From positions 1 through 33,492 of the forward strand of contig JABXJS010000095.1 of the NCBI GenBank assembly GCA_013538855.1: 33,492 bases of DNA. The letters are read 5' to 3'. How positions within the stretch are numbered: the stretch's first letter is position 1; each line of letters opens with the position of its first letter. The position numbers and the translations under genes are program-made. The stretch is from Herpetosiphonaceae bacterium (GTDB lineage: Bacteria > Chloroflexota > Chloroflexia > Chloroflexales > Herpetosiphonaceae). This document shows, piece by piece, positions 60-8,822 of this stretch. The notes under the pieces are model-generated. The model saw nothing but the letters and a program-made list of their open reading frames with translations. It was not told the origin of the DNA and did not search any database.

Positions 60-2069
60 TTACCCTGGCCCCAGGGAGTCCTGTGATCTACTGAGAATCA
101 GTGGAAGATAGACAGAGCTGCGCGTGGCGATGGTGTAGACCGCTCCTGTAAACGATCCGTTGCCTACGCCGTCGCCGCCAAGCGGAATGGCCGCGCTGAC
201 GCTGAGGATCGTGTCGTTATCGACAAGGTTGAGGCCAAGCGTGCCGTTGCCGGTACCAACGCTGGCCGTCACCGTCCAGACCGCGCCGGAGCCGCTGACG
301 GCGCTGATGCTGGCGTTGCTGAGGCCGCTGGTGGCTAGCATGAAGTCGCTCGCAGCGACGTTGGCGACCGCCTCGGAGAAGGTCACGCTGAAGGTGACGG
401 TCGGGGCGTTAGTGGGGCTAGGATCGGCGCGCACAATGCTGAGCACGGCGGGAATGCTCGGATCAAAGGTAACGCTGCTGGTGGCGCTGTCCTGGTTGGT
501 GTTGCCCAGCGCATCGGTGGCCACGTTGGCGGGCACGCTGAGCACCACGCTGCCTGGCCCGCGCATGCCGCTGACAGTGACCGTGTAGCTTGCTCCGGAG
601 CCACTGATGCTGGCGAGCAGCGTGCCAGGCGCAGTGCTGGCGCTCAGGTCGACATCGCTGACCAGATCGCCAAAGTCAGAGACGGGCTTGCTGAAGGTCA
701 CGCTGAAGCTGATCGGCGCGGTGCTGGCTGGATCGGCCTGGGCGCTGGCCTGCGCGACGCTGACCTGCAACGGCGCGCTGTCGATGCTCCAGCTGTAGCT
801 CGGCGGCGTAGAGTCCGCTGTGCCAAATCCATCAATTGCCCGCACCTTGAAGGTGTGGCTGCCGTCGAGCAGGTTGGTGTAGGTGATCGGACTTGTACAT
901 GCGCTGAAGGCCGCACCATCAATCTGACACTCGAATGCAGCGACTGTCGTGTCTGCGCTAGCATACCCGGCGAACGCGAACGTTGCAGTTGGGCTGGCGG
1001 TGAGCGCTGCGGGCATAGCCGTTATGATGGTCGCAGGTGCCTGCGCATCAACGACGAAGGTAATTGGGGGTGAGAAGGCGCTGTTGTTGGTCGCCGCGTC
1101 ACTGGCCATGGCTTTCACTGTGTGCTGGCCATAGGGCAGTGCGACTGACGGGATGAGACTCCACTCGCCAGCGCCGTTCGCCGTTACTGTTCCCCACGGC
1201 TGCTCATCCATGAACACGTGGACGCTTGACTGTGGCTCGGCGCTGCCGCTGATCAGCTGATAGGTCGTGGTTGTTACCGCGTTATGGACTGGCGTGGTGA
1301 TGATCGGCGGTGCTGGCGGTGCCGTATCGATGCGCCATGTGGCTGTGTCTGGTGATTGATCGACATTGCCAGCACGGTCGTAGGCCCGCACCCAGAAGGT
1401 GTGGCTGCCGTCGAGCAGGTTGGTATAGGTTATTGGGTGGGTGCAGGCGACGAATGGGTCTGCATCGAGCTTGCACTCGTAGCCTGCCGTGCCGCTGCCA
1501 TCCTTATCTATGCCTGCAAACTCAAAGGTTATGCTGGAGCTATTGCTAAGCGGCGGAACATAGTGGGTGATAACTGTGTCTGGGGCCAGTGTATCGATGG
1601 TGTACAGGACAGCGTTGGATAGAGCACTCGTGTTGCCGGCGCTGTCGGTGGCCCGTGCGGTGAGCATGCGTGTGCCGTCGCCATGGTAGCCATACGCGAT
1701 GCTCCAGTTGCCGGCGATATCGGCGGTTGTGGTGATTTCGACTGGATACTTGACGGTTACATAGACTGTTATTGCCGCCGTTGGCTCAGCGGTGCCGCTG
1801 ATAATCGTAACAGGTGTGTTGGTCAATGAGCCGTCGACTGGTGCGAGGATAACCGGTGGAGCTGGCGGTGTTGTGTCACCATGGATGCGCTCAGCATGCC
1901 CTGGCTTGCGGCTGTCTGCTGTGCTCGCGCGGCTGCCTGCGGCGCTGACAGTGACAGCGCGCTGGCGATACGCTGCAAATGTGGTGTGGCTAGGTAGGAC
2001 GCTCAGCAGTCCGACTGCCACGATCATTAAAAGGTACAGCCGTTTGATCCGGTGGGCATCATGGTCCAT
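60..2069 (-). CDS. Secreted multi-domain Ig-like repeat surface protein
   Basis: A 669-residue exported protein with no recognisable catalytic domain. Residues 1-33 form a signal peptide (basic start, hydrophobic LLMIVAVGLLSVL core). From about residue 68 there are alternating bacterial Ig-like modules: Big/Bap-like ones opening with PPAPP (about 68-158 and 250-340), and cysteine-pair modules of the form ECxLD...CTxPITYTNLLDGSHTFxVRA (about 159-245 and 345-435). Two domains resembling calcium-binding-type Big domains follow (about 435-650). The protein ends in SSVYLPLILSRSQ, a tail I recall from many Chloroflexota secreted proteins. The start follows a good Shine-Dalgarno (taggagaag, minus strand). 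Adhesion or a cell-surface role is likely but inferred. A broken paralogue lies just upstream at 2314-3305. Confidence 0.85.
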   Translation of the reverse strand: MDHDAHRIKRLYLLMIVAVGLLSVLPSHTTFAAYRQRAVTVSAAGSRASTADSRKPGHAERIHGDTTPPAPPVILAPVDGSLTNTPVTIISGTAEPTAAITVYVTVKYPVEITTTADIAGNWSIAYGYHGDGTRMLTARATDSAGNTSALSNAVLYTIDTLAPDTVITHYVPPLSNSSSITFEFAGIDKDGSGTAGYECKLDADPFVACTHPITYTNLLDGSHTFWVRAYDRAGNVDQSPDTATWRIDTAPPAPPIITTPVHNAVTTTTYQLISGSAEPQSSVHVFMDEQPWGTVTANGAGEWSLIPSVALPYGQHTVKAMASDAATNNSAFSPPITFVVDAQAPATIITAMPAALTASPTATFAFAGYASADTTVAAFECQIDGAAFSACTSPITYTNLLDGSHTFKVRAIDGFGTADSTPPSYSWSIDSAPLQVSVAQASAQADPASTAPISFSVTFSKPVSDFGDLVSDVDLSASTAPGTLLASISGSGASYTVTVSGMRGPGSVVLSVPANVATDALGNTNQDSATSSVTFDPSIPAVLSIVRADPSPTNAPTVTFSVTFSEAVANVAASDFMLATSGLSNASISAVSGSGAVWTVTASVGTGNGTLGLNLVDNDTILSVSAAIPLGGDGVGNGSFTGAVYTIATRSSVYLPLILSRSQDSLGPG

Positions 2070-2249
2070 GAACTTCTCCTAATACATGCTGGAACATTGT
2101 CGGTCAGAATCAAAATCACCTGTGCTCATGTGCTGAAGTGACACACGAGAAAGGTGGTTTGAAGCTGCTCTCCACTAGCAGGCGCTAGCATACCAGGTAT
2201 TATTGAGTCATGGAATAGTGAGTTTTTGCTCGTTGCGGCTAAATCTACT

Positions 2250-2282
2250 ACGGGCGGGATGGCAGCGCGCTATCCCGCCCGT
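2250..2282 (-). terminator. Hairpin after the Ig-repeat pseudogene
   Basis: A perfect 11-bp stem (2250-2260 with 2272-2282) encloses an 11-nt loop. It lies 32 bp beyond the end of the Ig-like remnant. There is no clear U-run on either strand, so its role as a terminator is uncertain. The rest of the 2070-2313 gap shows no gene. Confidence 0.35.
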
Positions 2283-2313
2283 AGCGGCTCGCCCTGCGCA
2301 CGCTAGCACAAAA

Positions 2314-3305
2314 TCAATCGACATTGGCGACCGCCTCGGAGAAGGTCACGCTGAAGGTGACGGTGGGGGCGTTAGTGGGGCTAGGGTCGGCGCGCACAAT
2401 GCTGAGCACGCTGGGGATGCTCGGATCGAAGGTCACGCTAAAGCTGATCGGCGCAGTGGTGGCTGGATCGGCCTGGCCGCTGGCCTGCGCGACGCTGACC
2501 TGCACCAGCGCGCTGTCGATGCTCCATCTGTAGCGGGCTGGTGTGGCATCTGTATTGCCTGCTCCATCAAGCGCTCGCACCTCGCAGGTGTGGCTGCCAT
2601 CGCCCAGGCTGGTCAGCACCAGTGGACTGGCACATGGACTGAAGCCCGAACCATCAAGCTGGCACGCAAATCCTGCTATGCCTGTCGTCACGCCGCCGCT
2701 GATGACATCGGTGGCCGTAAACTCAAACGTCGCTGTGATGCTGTTGGTGAGCGTCGGCAGCGTGCTGGTGATGCTTGTATTCGGCGCGGTGGTGTCGATA
2801 ATAAAGGTGATGCTGTTGGAGTCGACGCTGGTGTTGTTGGCGCTGTCAGTCGCGGTGGCCTTGGCGGTGTGCGCGCCATCGCTGGGCGGTGCTGCAGGCG
2901 TAAAGCTCCAGCTGCCGGAGCCATCGGCGGTGGTGGTGCCGCTGCTGACGCCGTCGAGATAGACGGTGACGGTGAGATTGGTGGTGGCGGTGCCAGTAAC
3001 GGCGGGCTGGCTGGTGTTGGTGATCGCGCCGTTGGCAGGCGTGCTGACGACCGGCGCAGGCGACGGCAGCGTGTCCACCGCCCACGAGTAGCTGGTCGGC
3101 GGGAACGTACATTATTTGCCGCATCGACGGCGCGCACATTGAACGTATGTGAGCCATCGCCAAGGCTGGTATAGCTGGCTGGGCTGGTGCACGTGCTGTA
3201 GGAGCCTAAGTCTAGCGCGCACTGATACTCCACAATGCCAGCGCTGGTGCCGCCGCTCGTTGGATCGCTGCCGGAGAACGCGAACGCTGCGTTAGTATAG
3301 TCTTT
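2314..3305 (-). pseudogene. Decayed, internally deleted paralogue of the Ig-repeat surface protein
   Basis: The minus strand encodes Ig-like modules closely matching the intact protein at 60-2069, but no start or signal peptide. Reading begins in mid-domain (about 3305, TNAAFAFSGSD) and runs through a CTSPASYTSLGDGSHTF module. It then shifts frame by about one base near 3100-3110, between AANNV and PPTSYSWAVD. A Big-like domain and a second cysteine-pair module follow. Downstream, the long domain present in the intact copy is missing: ISFSVTF joins directly to DPSIP. The copy ends abruptly at SEAVANVD and a stop. The last stretch (about 2325-2450) is nearly identical in DNA to 350-475, so the duplication or a conversion is recent. 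It is probably non-functional. Confidence 0.8.
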
Positions 3306-3347: not shown

Positions 3348-4118
3348 CTACATGTTATCGGCGCACACCGTCAGCAAACAGACATGGCTCGGCTGTGTCA
3401 CTGTTGGCGTCTGCGCTAGTTCGTGCTTGATCTGCGCAATGCCCCGCTCGTAGAGTTGATCGGGGATGGTGATCAGCTGCGAGCAGGTGGCGCGCGCTTG
3501 GGCGGTGTGCAGCATATCGGCTAGGCGCTCTTGGATCTGCAGCTGCGTGCGTTCTAAACGCACATTGCTTAGGCCCGCCTCGATCAGTGCGGTGCTCAGC
3601 TCTTCCGGCGACCAGAAGTCCTCCAGATCAGCCTCTAACGCAGCGGGAAAATAGCGATAGTAGATCCAGTCGTGCATCTCGTGCGGACAGATGTTGCTGT
3701 AGACAAAGCGGCCTTGCGCCCGTAGCATGCGCGCCACTGCCTGTATGAGCGCTGGTTTGTTCTGCACGTGGTGAAACGAGAACTGACAGGTGATATAGTC
3801 GAAGCTGGCAACGCCAAACGGCGGCGCACTACTGTCTCCCTGCACCCAGGCGATGGCCTGCGACTTTGCCTGGGCTTGCCGTAGCATGCCCATAAAGCGA
3901 TCCATGCCCACAAAGGTGAAAGTTGGAAACTGCGCTTGGTTGGCGATCAACTGGCTGCCGGTGCCGCAGCCTAGGTCGAGCACATCGAGCGGTCGCTGCG
4001 GCTGGCGCTCCGCCACAAAGCGCACAAGCTCTGGATCGACCTGCTTCTGACGGTAGGGGTGCTGATCGTAGGTGTGGGCGATCTGATCATAGTCAACCCG
4101 TGGCTGTACAGATGACAT
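3348..4118 (-). CDS. Class I SAM-dependent methyltransferase
   Basis: A 256-residue methyltransferase with a Rossmann fold. Motif I is VLDLGCGTG (residues 46-54), the acidic end of strand 2 is GMD (71-73), and FDYITCQFSFHHV (about 106-118) corresponds to the motif IV region. The layout resembles UbiE/MenG and Methyltransf_11 proteins, but the substrate cannot be read from the sequence. The start is preceded by AGGAGAAAG on the minus strand. It is the last gene of a tight minus-strand operon, 23 bp after the GNAT-HIT gene. Its stop codon happens to be in frame with the Ig-like remnant downstream, which I regard as chance. Confidence 0.85.
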   Translation of the reverse strand: MSSVQPRVDYDQIAHTYDQHPYRQKQVDPELVRFVAERQPQRPLDVLDLGCGTGSQLIANQAQFPTFTFVGMDRFMGMLRQAQAKSQAIAWVQGDSSAPPFGVASFDYITCQFSFHHVQNKPALIQAVARMLRAQGRFVYSNICPHEMHDWIYYRYFPAALEADLEDFWSPEELSTALIEAGLSNVRLERTQLQIQERLADMLHTAQARATCSQLITIPDQLYERGIAQIKHELAQTPTVTQPSHVCLLTVCADNM

Positions 4119-4141
4119 AGACTTTCTCCTATGTGTCCTAC

Positions 4142-4993
4142 TTAGCTCCTGAGCGGCTCTCCGGCCCCGATATGCCAGTGCAGATGCTTGGAGTCTTGAT
4201 ATGTGCCCAGGTTTGTTACCACATGGCAGCCGCCATGGTTCGCTACAACCTCGGCGGCAACCTGTTGCACGACAGCGAGCAGCTCCTGCAGCAGCGTGGT
4301 GTCGCTGCTGATGTCAAGCAGCGATGCGATGTGTTGCTTGGGGATGACGACGATGTGCACCGGCCAGTGCGGACGGGTGTGCTGGAACGCGAGCACACCC
4401 GCCGTCTCATGCACTGTGACGACAGCGGTGCGCCCGCTGAGCACCTGATCACAGTAGAAGTCTGTGCCCGCATATGCCGCGCTCGGCTTGCTCGGCTCTG
4501 GTGGCGACTGAAACTCCTGCCGTGGGCCATCTGCTGTCATGTGCTCCTGATACTGGCCGCTGGTGTAGTGTGCAATAACGGCGCGCCAGAAGCGCTGGGC
4601 GGGCTGATTATGTGGCTCTTGCCCGACAATCCAGGTGCCCGGAAAGCGCGCAAACAGTGCCTGCGCGACCATGCTCCCTAGCCCCTGCCGTCGATACTTG
4701 CGCAGGATGAAAAACTCGGCCATTGCATGGTGTGCCGCGCCATCAGCATGCTGCTCTAGCCTGCGCACCAGCGCAAAGCCCGCGATTTGCTGCCGATAGT
4801 GCACGATAAACGCAAAGCGACCTGGCTCGGTCCAGTAGTTATCGAGGTAGTCGTAGCCAAAGTGGCCGTGCTGGCTGATGTCGGCACCGTTGAACTGGCT
4901 GTAGTCGTGCTGGCATAGCTCTAGCAGCTGGCGCAGCACGGGCTTGGTGTCGATTGTCGCTGGCCGTAGCTCTAGCGCGCTAGCTGGCGGCAT
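4142..4993 (-). CDS. GNAT acetyltransferase fused to a HIT-family domain
   Basis: A 283-residue two-domain protein. Residues about 8-155 are a GNAT N-acyltransferase: the acetyl-CoA loop is RRQGLG (101-106), after strand AEFFILRKY. After a proline-rich linker (about 160-175), residues 178-283 form a HIT domain. It starts at DFYCDQVLSGR and carries the HIT motif H270-L-H272-W-H274, whose middle histidine is the usual nucleotidyl-accepting nucleophile. HIT proteins are nucleotide hydrolases or transferases. The fusion suggests acyl transfer coupled to removal of an AMP-type group, but this is inference. The start has AGGAG 6 bp upstream. The gene sits 21 bp after the ATP-grasp gene and 23 bp before the methyltransferase. 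Confidence 0.85.
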   Translation of the reverse strand: MPPASALELRPATIDTKPVLRQLLELCQHDYSQFNGADISQHGHFGYDYLDNYWTEPGRFAFIVHYRQQIAGFALVRRLEQHADGAAHHAMAEFFILRKYRRQGLGSMVAQALFARFPGTWIVGQEPHNQPAQRFWRAVIAHYTSGQYQEHMTADGPRQEFQSPPEPSKPSAAYAGTDFYCDQVLSGRTAVVTVHETAGVLAFQHTRPHWPVHIVVIPKQHIASLLDISSDTTLLQELLAVVQQVAAEVVANHGGCHVVTNLGTYQDSKHLHWHIGAGEPLRS

Positions 4994-5014
4994 ACGCTGC
5001 TCCTATCTTTTAAC

Positions 5015-6094
5015 CTAAAGCGGCTGATTGTAGATGCGCTGGTAGAGACGGCGCACGGCGGCCCGCTGCTCTGGCCCGCTGGAGGCATAGTGCTCCATGC
5101 CCGGCGAGGCGTTGATCTCGATGATGCTGTAGTCTGCGCTCGGATCAGCGAGATCGGCGCAGGCGATGTCAACGCCACAGAACTCTAGCCCCATTGCGGC
5201 GGTTAGTTCGCTGCATAGGTCGCGCCAGCGCGGATGCAGCTGTGCGGTGTAGTCCTCTGCCTCGCCGCCAAGCGAGAGGTTCGAGGCATCGTGGACTTGA
5301 TACACCTCAGCTGGTGCGAGCACGCTCGCCAGCGTCAGATTGTGCCGCGCCAGGCGCTGGCCGATGCGCGGGTCTTCAAGCTTGATCACGGTGCTGCGCC
5401 CGATTGCGCTGAAGTGCGCCTGCTTTGACTCCAGCAGCTGGCCAATGCTCGCTACGCCATCGCCGCTGACGGCCAGCGGTCGCCGCAGGTAGCAGGCCAC
5501 AACCTCGTCGCGCAGCACAACGACGCGGTAGTCGGGATAGGGCACCGCCGCCTCGGCTAGAAACAGCCGCCGCTCGGTGCGCTGGAATAGCTCGACCGCT
5601 GCTGCCACGGCATCTGGCCCGTCGCAGCGCGTCACGCCCTCGCCCTGCGACGAGTCGTTGGGCTTGAGGTAGCACGGGTAGCCCAGCTGGCCCTCAATGT
5701 AGTCGTAGAGCGACTCGATAAACGCATAGTCGCTGAAGCCGTGCCGCCCAAGGTTGCGGTCGATGCGCGCGATATACTGCGGCAGCAGAAACACCTGGCC
5801 CACCGGCGTCGCATAGCCTAGCGCCTGCATAAAAAACTTGGCGTAGCCCTTGTCGGTGGCGATGCTGGTCGCGCCGTTGTTGTTCAGGCCCACCCGCGCA
5901 TCGCGAATCATGCGCACGGTGCCGTTGGTGTAGCGCAGTCGCCCAGCATAGCCGTAGCGCGGCTCGATCAGCAGCTCGGCCACGTTGGGCAGCTCGCCCT
6001 GCGCGTACAGATCAAGCAGTAGCCGCGTGGTGAACGGGTAGTGCGCCTTGCTCGGCGGCGCATCAGGCCGGATCGCTGAAGTTAACGTGCTCAT
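5015..6094 (-). CDS. ATP-grasp carboxylate-amine ligase
   Basis: A 359-residue ATP-grasp enzyme. Visible elements are the ATP-lysine region YPCYLKPNDSSQGEG (140-152, K144), the central strand FLAEAAVPYPDYRVVVLRDEVVA (about 178-200), a cyanophycin-synthetase-like stretch with NLSLGGEAEDYT (272-283), and the metal-binding end GVDI (307-310, D309) with IIEINASPGME (324-334, E326 and N328). The family joins a carboxylate to an amine using ATP through an acylphosphate. The substrate is unknown. The last two-thirds look closest to cyanophycin synthetase or glutamate-cysteine ligase type ATP-grasps. It is the first intact gene of a three-gene operon and overlaps the end of the Uma2 remnant by 32 bp. 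Confidence 0.85.
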   Translation of the reverse strand: MSTLTSAIRPDAPPSKAHYPFTTRLLLDLYAQGELPNVAELLIEPRYGYAGRLRYTNGTVRMIRDARVGLNNNGATSIATDKGYAKFFMQALGYATPVGQVFLLPQYIARIDRNLGRHGFSDYAFIESLYDYIEGQLGYPCYLKPNDSSQGEGVTRCDGPDAVAAAVELFQRTERRLFLAEAAVPYPDYRVVVLRDEVVACYLRRPLAVSGDGVASIGQLLESKQAHFSAIGRSTVIKLEDPRIGQRLARHNLTLASVLAPAEVYQVHDASNLSLGGEAEDYTAQLHPRWRDLCSELTAAMGLEFCGVDIACADLADPSADYSIIEINASPGMEHYASSGPEQRAAVRRLYQRIYNQPL

Positions 6095-6482
6095 AGATGT
6101 CCTGCAGCGCTAGGCTGCAACTAAGTGGTGCAAGTTGAATTGTGTGCTCAAGGCCGTGGAATTCTATCAGCAGCCAGCGCTGATGCGGCTGGCGTATATG
6201 CAGCTCCACATAGGCCCGGTTTTGCGCCACGACAACATACGCCTGTAGCGTATCAATCGTGCGATACTGCTCAAATTTCCCCCCCGCGATCATCGTGCTC
6301 AGTCCTTGGTGCTAGCACCTCAATCAGCACGCATAGGTTGATAATCGGATCAGGTCGGTCAGCGCTTAGCTCGATTGCGCCGCAGACAATCGAAAGATCA
6401 GGATAGGTATAGAGGCCCGTCTGCTCAATGTTTAAGCACATGGCGCTTCTAGGGTGATGAACTGCTCTGATTGTGCGCTCAT
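6063..6482 (-). pseudogene. Uma2-family (DUF820) endonuclease remnant with deletion and frameshift
   Basis: Uma2 proteins are PD-(D/E)XK-like nucleases, common in cyanobacteria and Chloroflexota. A good ribosome site (AAGGAACG) and ATG at 6482 start MSAQSEQFITLE, a typical Uma2 N-terminus. This jumps directly to sequence belonging mid-protein (GLYTYPDLSIVCGAIE..., in another frame), so roughly the first half is deleted. The reading frame breaks again at a run of seven C (plus strand, 6279-6285), where DRGG should continue into GKFEQYRTID. The last 70 or so residues (EQYRTIDTLQAYVVVAQNRAYVE... to DIYEHVNF) are well preserved. The decay looks recent. Confidence 0.8.
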
Positions 6483-8488: not shown

Positions 8489-8524
8489 GCGGCCACTCCT
8501 CTCTGGAGTGGCCGCTTTTGCTTT
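8489..8524 (+). terminator. Strong intrinsic terminator
   Basis: A perfect 11-bp GC-rich stem (8489-8499 with 8505-8515) with a 5-nt loop is followed by TTTTGCTTT. It lies 25 bp after the stop of the peptidoglycan-binding gene. Confidence 0.9.
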
Positions 8525-8751
8525 AGAAATGCTACGCCGTGGTCTGCGCCTGCATCTGCTGTTGCCATGTCTAGCTGTGCTCGCCCGCTGCCACTTGCTG
8601 CGTGGTTGCGCCCCCGCTCGCTGATGGCCTGCGCCGCTTTTTTTGCTTTAGAAATGCTACGCCGTGGTCTGCGCCCGCATCTGCTGTTGCCATGTCTAGC
8701 TGTGCTCGCCCGCTGCCTCTTGCTGCGTGGTTGCGCCCCCGCTCGCTGATG
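8516..8751. repeat. Tandem direct repeat, two copies, 125-bp period
   Basis: The segment 8516-8626 recurs at 8641-8751, with only about two substitutions in the alignable 111 bp and a few extra T residues at the junction. Each unit starts with a T-rich tract followed by GCTTTAGAAATGCTACG. The first unit starts in the tail of the terminator of the preceding gene, so terminator sequence seems to have been copied too. Short readings through it are low-complexity and not convincing as protein. It fills the gap between the terminator and the next promoter. Confidence 0.9.
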
Positions 8752-8766
8752 CTTGAGCGCCGCCTG

Positions 8767-8822
8767 CTGCTAGCGATCTGCTAGGAATCTGCTAGCCGCT
8801 GTGGCGCTGTTTTCGCTATGCT
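8767..8822 (+). promoter_or_regulatory. Three CTGCTAG repeats at 11-bp period plus -10-like hexamer
   Basis: CTGCTAG occurs at 8767-8773, 8778-8784 and 8789-8795, each separated by 4 bp. After exactly 21 bp comes TATGCT (8817-8822), a possible -10 for the membrane-protein gene starting at 8863. Seven-bp direct repeats at 11-bp period are the usual form of OmpR/PhoB-family binding sites. The same architecture recurs at 17519-17574. Confidence 0.6.

Follow-up and report, generated by a model that had tools for sequence, protein, structure and literature searches.

Three closely spaced genes on the minus strand of the 33,492-nucleotide stretch of Herpetosiphonaceae bacterium DNA analyzed here (the window, designated contig C26 in a genome of 6.3 Mb) encode an ATP-grasp ligase of an unnamed clade, a protein in which a GNAT acetyltransferase is fused to a HIT domain, and a methyltransferase. 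Our preferred reading, to which we give slightly short of even confidence, is that these genes form a lineage-specific unit of three enzymes that are normally encoded singly, and that the most likely role of the ligase would be to extend a cofactor or gamma-glutamyl tail, most probably with glutamate. The features are as follows.

5015 to 6094, minus strand: ATP-grasp amide ligase ORF, 359 amino acids (PF08443, TIGR02068, alignment to CphA structures, tree)
4994 to 5014, minus strand: 21-bp gap in which AGGAG precedes the start of the GNAT-HIT fusion
4142 to 4993, minus strand: GNAT acetyltransferase and HINT-type HIT fusion ORF, 283 amino acids (ORF list, Pfam, PDB matches)
4499 to 4993, minus strand: GNAT module of the fusion, about residues 1-165, which contains RRQGLG
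4142 to 4498, minus strand: HIT module of the fusion, about residues 166-283
4166 to 4186, minus strand: histidine triad HLHWHIG, residues 270-276
4119 to 4141, minus strand: 23-bp gap in which AGGAG precedes the start of the methyltransferase
3348 to 4118, minus strand: class I SAM-dependent methyltransferase, BioC/UbiE-like, 256 amino acids (ORF, Pfam, NCBIfam)

Read along the minus strand, the ligase (6094-5015) is followed by the GNAT-HIT fusion (4993-4142) and the methyltransferase (4118-3348). A sequence-only reading of this DNA had described three such genes separated by gaps of 21 and 23 bp, and the ORFs, their common strand and their intact motifs bear this out. Its calls of an ATP-grasp protein, a GNAT-HIT fusion and a methyltransferase were right, as all Pfam scores exceed their gathering cut-offs. 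The interval it assigned to the three genes, 4142-6094, needs correction, since it covers only the ligase and the fusion, while the methyltransferase lies at 3348-4118. The occurrence of the three genes, with over-cut-off domains and intact motifs, is far beyond chance. As no promoter- or terminator-like site around the three genes exceeded the shuffled background, the label "operon" rests on strand and spacing. The short spacing and the AGGAG sites speak for coexpression, at the least, of the three proteins. With a G+C content of 0.59-0.65 against 0.61 for the window, the genes do not stand out by composition as foreign DNA.

Among other features of the window, at 6063-6480 on the minus strand, just upstream of the ligase, a frame of 76 amino acids overlaps the ligase start and has no Pfam match; it looks like a piece of a Uma2-type endonuclease gene that has been broken into frames. 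Positions 60-3078 on the minus strand encode a large surface protein with Ig-like/OmpL47 repeats, with a second repeat-rich frame adjoining. On the plus strand, about 100 bases or more seem to be repeated at 8500-8784, downstream of a gene for a peptidoglycan-binding protein, as judged from the ORF translations.

The ligase matches the Pfam RimK-type ATP-grasp model (PF08443) at 38.1 bits, over the gathering cut-off of 21. Its best full models were those of cyanophycin synthetase, GshF-type glutathione synthetase and N-acetylglutaminylglutamine synthetase, and all matches were far under cut-off. The score was 127.5 of 850 bits for cyanophycin synthetase (TIGR02068), and the models of the tail glutamate ligases MptN (NF040720; 28.9 of 350 bits) and CofF (TIGR04443; 10.8 of 300 bits) were missed more widely. 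For N-acetylglutaminylglutamine synthetase (TIGR03103), the score of 84.3 bits against a cut-off of 569 makes the loose likeness of the ligase and GNAT to the N-acetylglutaminylglutamine amide enzyme, which had been proposed from the letters of the DNA, real at the level of the superfamily.

The best structure matches of the ligase were cyanophycin synthases, with the ATP-grasp core aligned over residues 125-338. Ligase residues K144, E181, R190, D309, E326 and N328 align with the K, E, R, D and E-x-N positions of CphA, which are presumably catalytic, and the same residues occur in a Nomurabacteria relative (L059). The window ligase thus has its ATP-grasp core and these positions in common with the N-terminal half of the cyanophycin synthetase CphA1, but CphA1 also contains a Mur-ligase half, which is lacking from the 359-residue protein. 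In a maximum-likelihood tree of 32 rows, which included seven CphA rows and Ngg, the ligase fell in a 13-row clade with support of 100/100, apart from CphA, Ngg and the other rows; within this clade, it sits in a four-row subclade from the same phylum. Two sequences were left out of the tree: L065, a near copy of L064, and the relative in genome G377 (L076, 8552-9714), which is apparently frameshifted near residue 65. Since the residues aligned with CphA are kept and the clade is separate and fully supported, the ligase is, as judged from its sequence, an active-looking member of an unnamed clade of standalone ATP-grasp enzymes. By the same kind of evidence, we class it as neither a cyanophycin synthetase nor an N-acetylglutaminylglutamine synthetase. 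In two plasmid records, ligases of the clade are annotated as cyanophycin synthetase or hypothetical protein, and the former label is probably wrong. Two predicted structures were poor (mean pLDDT 38.6 and 38.7). A viral scan with the ligase as query revealed no relative, and phage records gave only 28-29% matches.

In the second protein, an Acetyltransf_1 domain (PF00583; 37.1 bits, gathering cut-off 20.7, residues 40-137) and a HIT domain (PF01230; 42.6 bits, gathering cut-off 21.5, residues 194-276) occupy the same chain. GNAT proteins bind acetyl-CoA through the motif R/Q-x-x-G-x-G/A, which is intact as RRQGLG at residue 101, and the HIT triad H-x-H-x-H-x-x is intact as HLHWHIG; these motifs and the domain scores place the two halves with the GNAT acetyltransferases and the HINT-type HIT proteins, respectively. 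The best PDB matches of the HIT half are HINT-like proteins. The fusion has domain families and intact motifs in common with HINT-type HIT hydrolases, MccH and MccE-type GNAT proteins, but differs from them in that both domains are in one chain and in that its triad residue is not that of MccH.

Relatives of the two halves occur as separate proteins. In 26 other genomes of the phylum, the fusion found matches at E≤1e-18, each of which covers one half only, with identities of up to 58% for free GNAT proteins and up to 74% for free HIT proteins. Among plasmids, 51 records matched the fusion and none covered 80% of the query; five viral loci had a free HIT protein and no fusion. The GNAT-HIT fusion was therefore seen only in the window genome among those searched. 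We found no report of such a fusion in the open-access literature, which is no proof of absence. On a Planococcus glaciei plasmid (L101, 2718-6555), a 42% GNAT relative lies downstream of MurE-like and methyltransferase genes annotated as fragments. We rejected this locus as a matching set, since its methyltransferase is no detectable relative of that in the window and the genes are in pieces.

The methyltransferase matches Methyltransf_23 at 64.4 bits (gathering cut-off 27) and scores below cut-off against the BioC malonyl-ACP methyltransferase model (TIGR02072; 92.2 bits, cut-off 184.95). From these matches, we regard it as a generic class I enzyme. Among 59 further near relatives of the host, nothing matched it at E≤1e-25.

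The genes do not stay together elsewhere. We examined 14 neighborhoods of ligase relatives, from seven other genomes of the phylum, L059, two Rhizobium plasmids (L064 and L065) and four Patescibacteria loci (L126-L129), and none contained a GNAT or HIT gene. When the three window proteins were used in tblastn searches of ten of these neighborhoods (the seven from the phylum, L059, L064 and L065), only the ligase was found, except in L074, where the methyltransferase had a single weak match (28%, E 6.5e-8). L126-L129 contained neither GNAT, HIT nor methyltransferase. One of the neighborhoods, L070, is short because it is a 3.5-kb contig. The ligase itself is sparsely distributed: it matches at E≤1e-30 in 8 of 400 genomes of the phylum, the host included; across 59 further near relatives, the best match was 1.0e-26, short of that threshold. 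Relatives of two of the proteins can be found in one genome at separate places, as in G361 (ligase on contig C7, GNAT on C9) and G206 (ligase on C73, HIT on C62). The genes next to the ligase in the other holders of the phylum were varied and included luciferase-like, ThuA, AAA and cellulase genes. Since the relatives of the three genes live apart in other genomes, the trio looks like a lineage-specific set that was assembled locally, without a conserved pathway, from families that are normally single genes. Thus, the suggestion that the three enzymes build and decorate a small molecule together agrees with their domain types but finds no comparative support in their scattered relatives; a joint pathway in this single strain is compatible with the data.

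Relatives of the ligase in Patescibacteria have folate-type neighbors. In the class to which the Nomurabacteria relative belongs, 12 of 285 genomes match the ligase at E≤1e-30. Five of these are close (G700, G693, G612, G475 and G420; E≤1e-110); the remaining seven fall in a more distant subfamily, whose neighbors differ and include tandem copies. A gene for a CofE-like protein (PF01996) directly adjoins the ligase in G700, G693, G612 and G475, four of the five close holders; the fifth, G420, has a weak PF01996 match elsewhere in its genome. By comparison, PF01996 occurs anywhere in the genome in 49 of the 285 genomes of the class and in one of the seven distant-subfamily genomes. When two of the adjoining CofE-like proteins were scored against NCBIfam, the best model for both was TIGR04132 ("putative folate metabolism gamma-glutamate ligase"; 212.7 and 190.8 bits, under the cut-off of 350). 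This CofE-like ligase, which we also refer to as FolC2, belongs to a protein family other than that of the window ligase, and the window genome contains none.

Other folate-type genes are also nearby. Four of the five close holders have a DHFR-like gene no more than about 1 kb from the ligase, and three have a thymidylate synthase gene (ThyA) no more than about 2 kb from it. In G475, the genes run ligase, CofE-like, DHFR/RibD_C-like, and the latter two overlap. Neither a DHFR-like nor a thymidylate synthase gene was present in the stretch examined for G612 (L128). Of three CofE-like loci of what looks like the same subfamily (L152, L153 and L154), from genomes without a strong ligase match, two had a DHFR-like gene within the short stretch examined. 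No FolC over cut-off was detected in the five close holders. In the host's own phylum, the ligase of G331 has as its divergent neighbor a second FolC (251 bits against a cut-off of 162.65); the other FolC of that genome lies elsewhere. Because G700 and G693 are syntenic, the four adjoining cases amount to about three arrangements, plus G331.

Some loci of ligase relatives have further neighbors. In L059 (437-2467), L126 (3516-6964) and L127 (2899-6317), the ligase is in or near the nusG-rplK operon; in L059, it lies 4 bp after rplK. We considered a role in ribosome modification and rejected it, as these genes are near the ligase only in this syntenic group and not in L128 or L129. Two or three tandem ATP-grasp copies of the distant subfamily occur in other Patescibacteria (L158, 5210-7284; L159, 4406-7494), near genes that by eye resemble further ligases and membrane proteins. 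On an Azospirillum plasmid (L163, 2273-4624), a distant ATP-grasp relative adjoins genes for an acyl carrier protein and a YheC/YheD protein, possibly forming a small biosynthetic cluster.

Our reading of the ligase as a tail-extending enzyme draws on the folate-type neighbors of the clade, the replacement of FolC by CofE-like proteins, and the existence of ATP-grasp tail ligases in other pathways. CofF has an ATP-grasp fold, and MptN, CofF and MyfB are, like the window ligase, standalone ATP-grasp enzymes, although the ligase does not fit the sequence models of MptN and CofF. The adjoining gamma-glutamyl ligase genes are what would be expected for an enzyme of this type. In chlamydiae, FolC is replaced by a CofE homolog that complements a folC mutant of E. 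coli (PMC1971073), E. coli folate tails are reported with distal alpha linkages (PMC1971073), F420 receives a terminal alpha-linked glutamate from CofF (PMC8498797), and MyfA and MyfB act on methylofuran (PMC8141765). In such a scheme, the ligase would phosphorylate the terminal carboxylate of its acceptor and then couple an amino acid, most probably glutamate, lengthening the tail of a small cofactor or a similar gamma-glutamyl compound as MptN, CofF and MyfB do. The GNAT half of the fusion would N-acetylate an amine, the HIT half would cleave a phosphoramidate or aminoacyl-nucleotide bond, and the methyltransferase would methylate an oxygen or nitrogen.

For the host, this reading is transferred from relatives that are 35-51% identical, since the window genome has no PF01996 match, its ordinary FolC is on another contig, and no folate gene was seen adjoining the three-gene unit in the window. 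With a normal FolC present and PF01996 absent, the ligase need not replace FolC in the host. PF01996 is found in all seven other ligase holders of the phylum, which weighs little because it is found in 291 of 400 genomes phylum-wide. We rejected F420 as the tail in the host phylum, since this comparison is uninformative and the host lacks PF01996. The open-access literature yielded nothing that links an ATP-grasp enzyme to folate in Patescibacteria or to FolC or F420-0, which is no proof of absence.

Other explanations of the locus differ in whether the three enzymes cooperate. They may be unrelated accessory enzymes that have a common promoter and no functional link, which fits the scattered families and the lack of a methyltransferase relative among the near relatives of the host; yet random neighbors usually show less order than a domain fusion plus two short gaps that contain ribosome sites, the three genes have the base composition of their surroundings, and we consider this reading rather unlikely. 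At the other extreme, the genes could encode a dedicated pathway in which the ligase product, a dipeptide or amino-acid conjugate, is acetylated by the GNAT half and methylated by the third enzyme, with the HIT half serving to remove a nucleotide by-product. Here, the same-strand trio with its short gaps and AGGAG sites agrees with the proposal, as does N-acetylglutaminylglutamine synthetase, where GNAT and ATP-grasp chemistry are encoded together and can cooperate. That synthetase is a single chain in which the GNAT is joined to the ATP-grasp domain, with a partner amidotransferase adjoining (amidotransferase-ngg in the reference locus), whereas in the window the two activities are in two genes and the GNAT is joined to HIT. 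Moreover, the set is conserved in no neighborhood examined, the unit lacks a transporter, regulator or carrier gene, and a HIT phosphoramidase would be superfluous at the ligase step, because ATP-grasp ligases release ADP, not AMP. We therefore hold a dedicated pathway to be doubtful.

Two further proposals account for single proteins and seem highly improbable. The ligase could be a side branch of cyanophycin metabolism that acts on beta-Asp-Arg chains or dipeptides, since cyanophycin enzymes provide its best full model and best structures and the host has on contig C143 a further, longer frame that resembles cyanophycin synthetase; this is opposed by the placement of the ligase in its own fully supported clade, by its lack of a Mur-ligase half and by the folate-type genes that recur next to the clade. 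The fusion, in turn, could confer resistance to aminoacyl-nucleotide poisons by combining in one chain the two known routes by which processed microcin C is detoxified, acetylation at the amino group (MccE) and cleavage of the phosphoramidate (MccH). As described in PMC7157772, MccE acetylates processed microcin C and MccH, a HIT hydrolase, cleaves it, and both motifs are intact in the fusion. Its HIT half is of the HINT type, however, and neither the MccH template 3P0T nor any chain named MccE appeared among the 42 PDB matches listed. The position of MccH lysine K103 (PMC7157772), two residues past the catalytic histidine, is a histidine in the window. As the triad residue and the PDB matches do not fit, we rejected membership in the microcin C immunity proteins, leaving resistance to aminoacyl-nucleotides as a lead and not a family assignment. 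A defense role was also rejected: the ligase had no PADLOC match at E≤0.1, and we read the weak match of the fusion HIT half to ThsC (2.8e-6) and that of the methyltransferase to mads_2 (2e-16) as general family likeness.

Returning to the tail-extending ligase, a bolder version of this reading, which we think unlikely, is that the whole clade consists of unrecognized ligases for the tails of folate or related cofactors, which would add amino acids, perhaps alpha-linked glutamate, beyond the gamma-glutamyl units that FolC or a CofE-like FolC2 attaches, and that in the host the ligase was recruited together with the GNAT-HIT fusion and the methyltransferase to produce a capped, methylated tail or peptide. 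If this were true, the clade would supply a gene for distal tail linkages like those reported for E. coli folates. The GNAT-HIT fusion would be a new combination, in a single protein, of the acetylation of amines and the cleavage of phosphoramidates. Of most use is the ligase clade, which is unnamed and has folate-type neighbors that recur in other lineages; the neighbor evidence gives it a testable folate-type tail-building role in Patescibacteria, where the five genomes checked have no FolC over cut-off.
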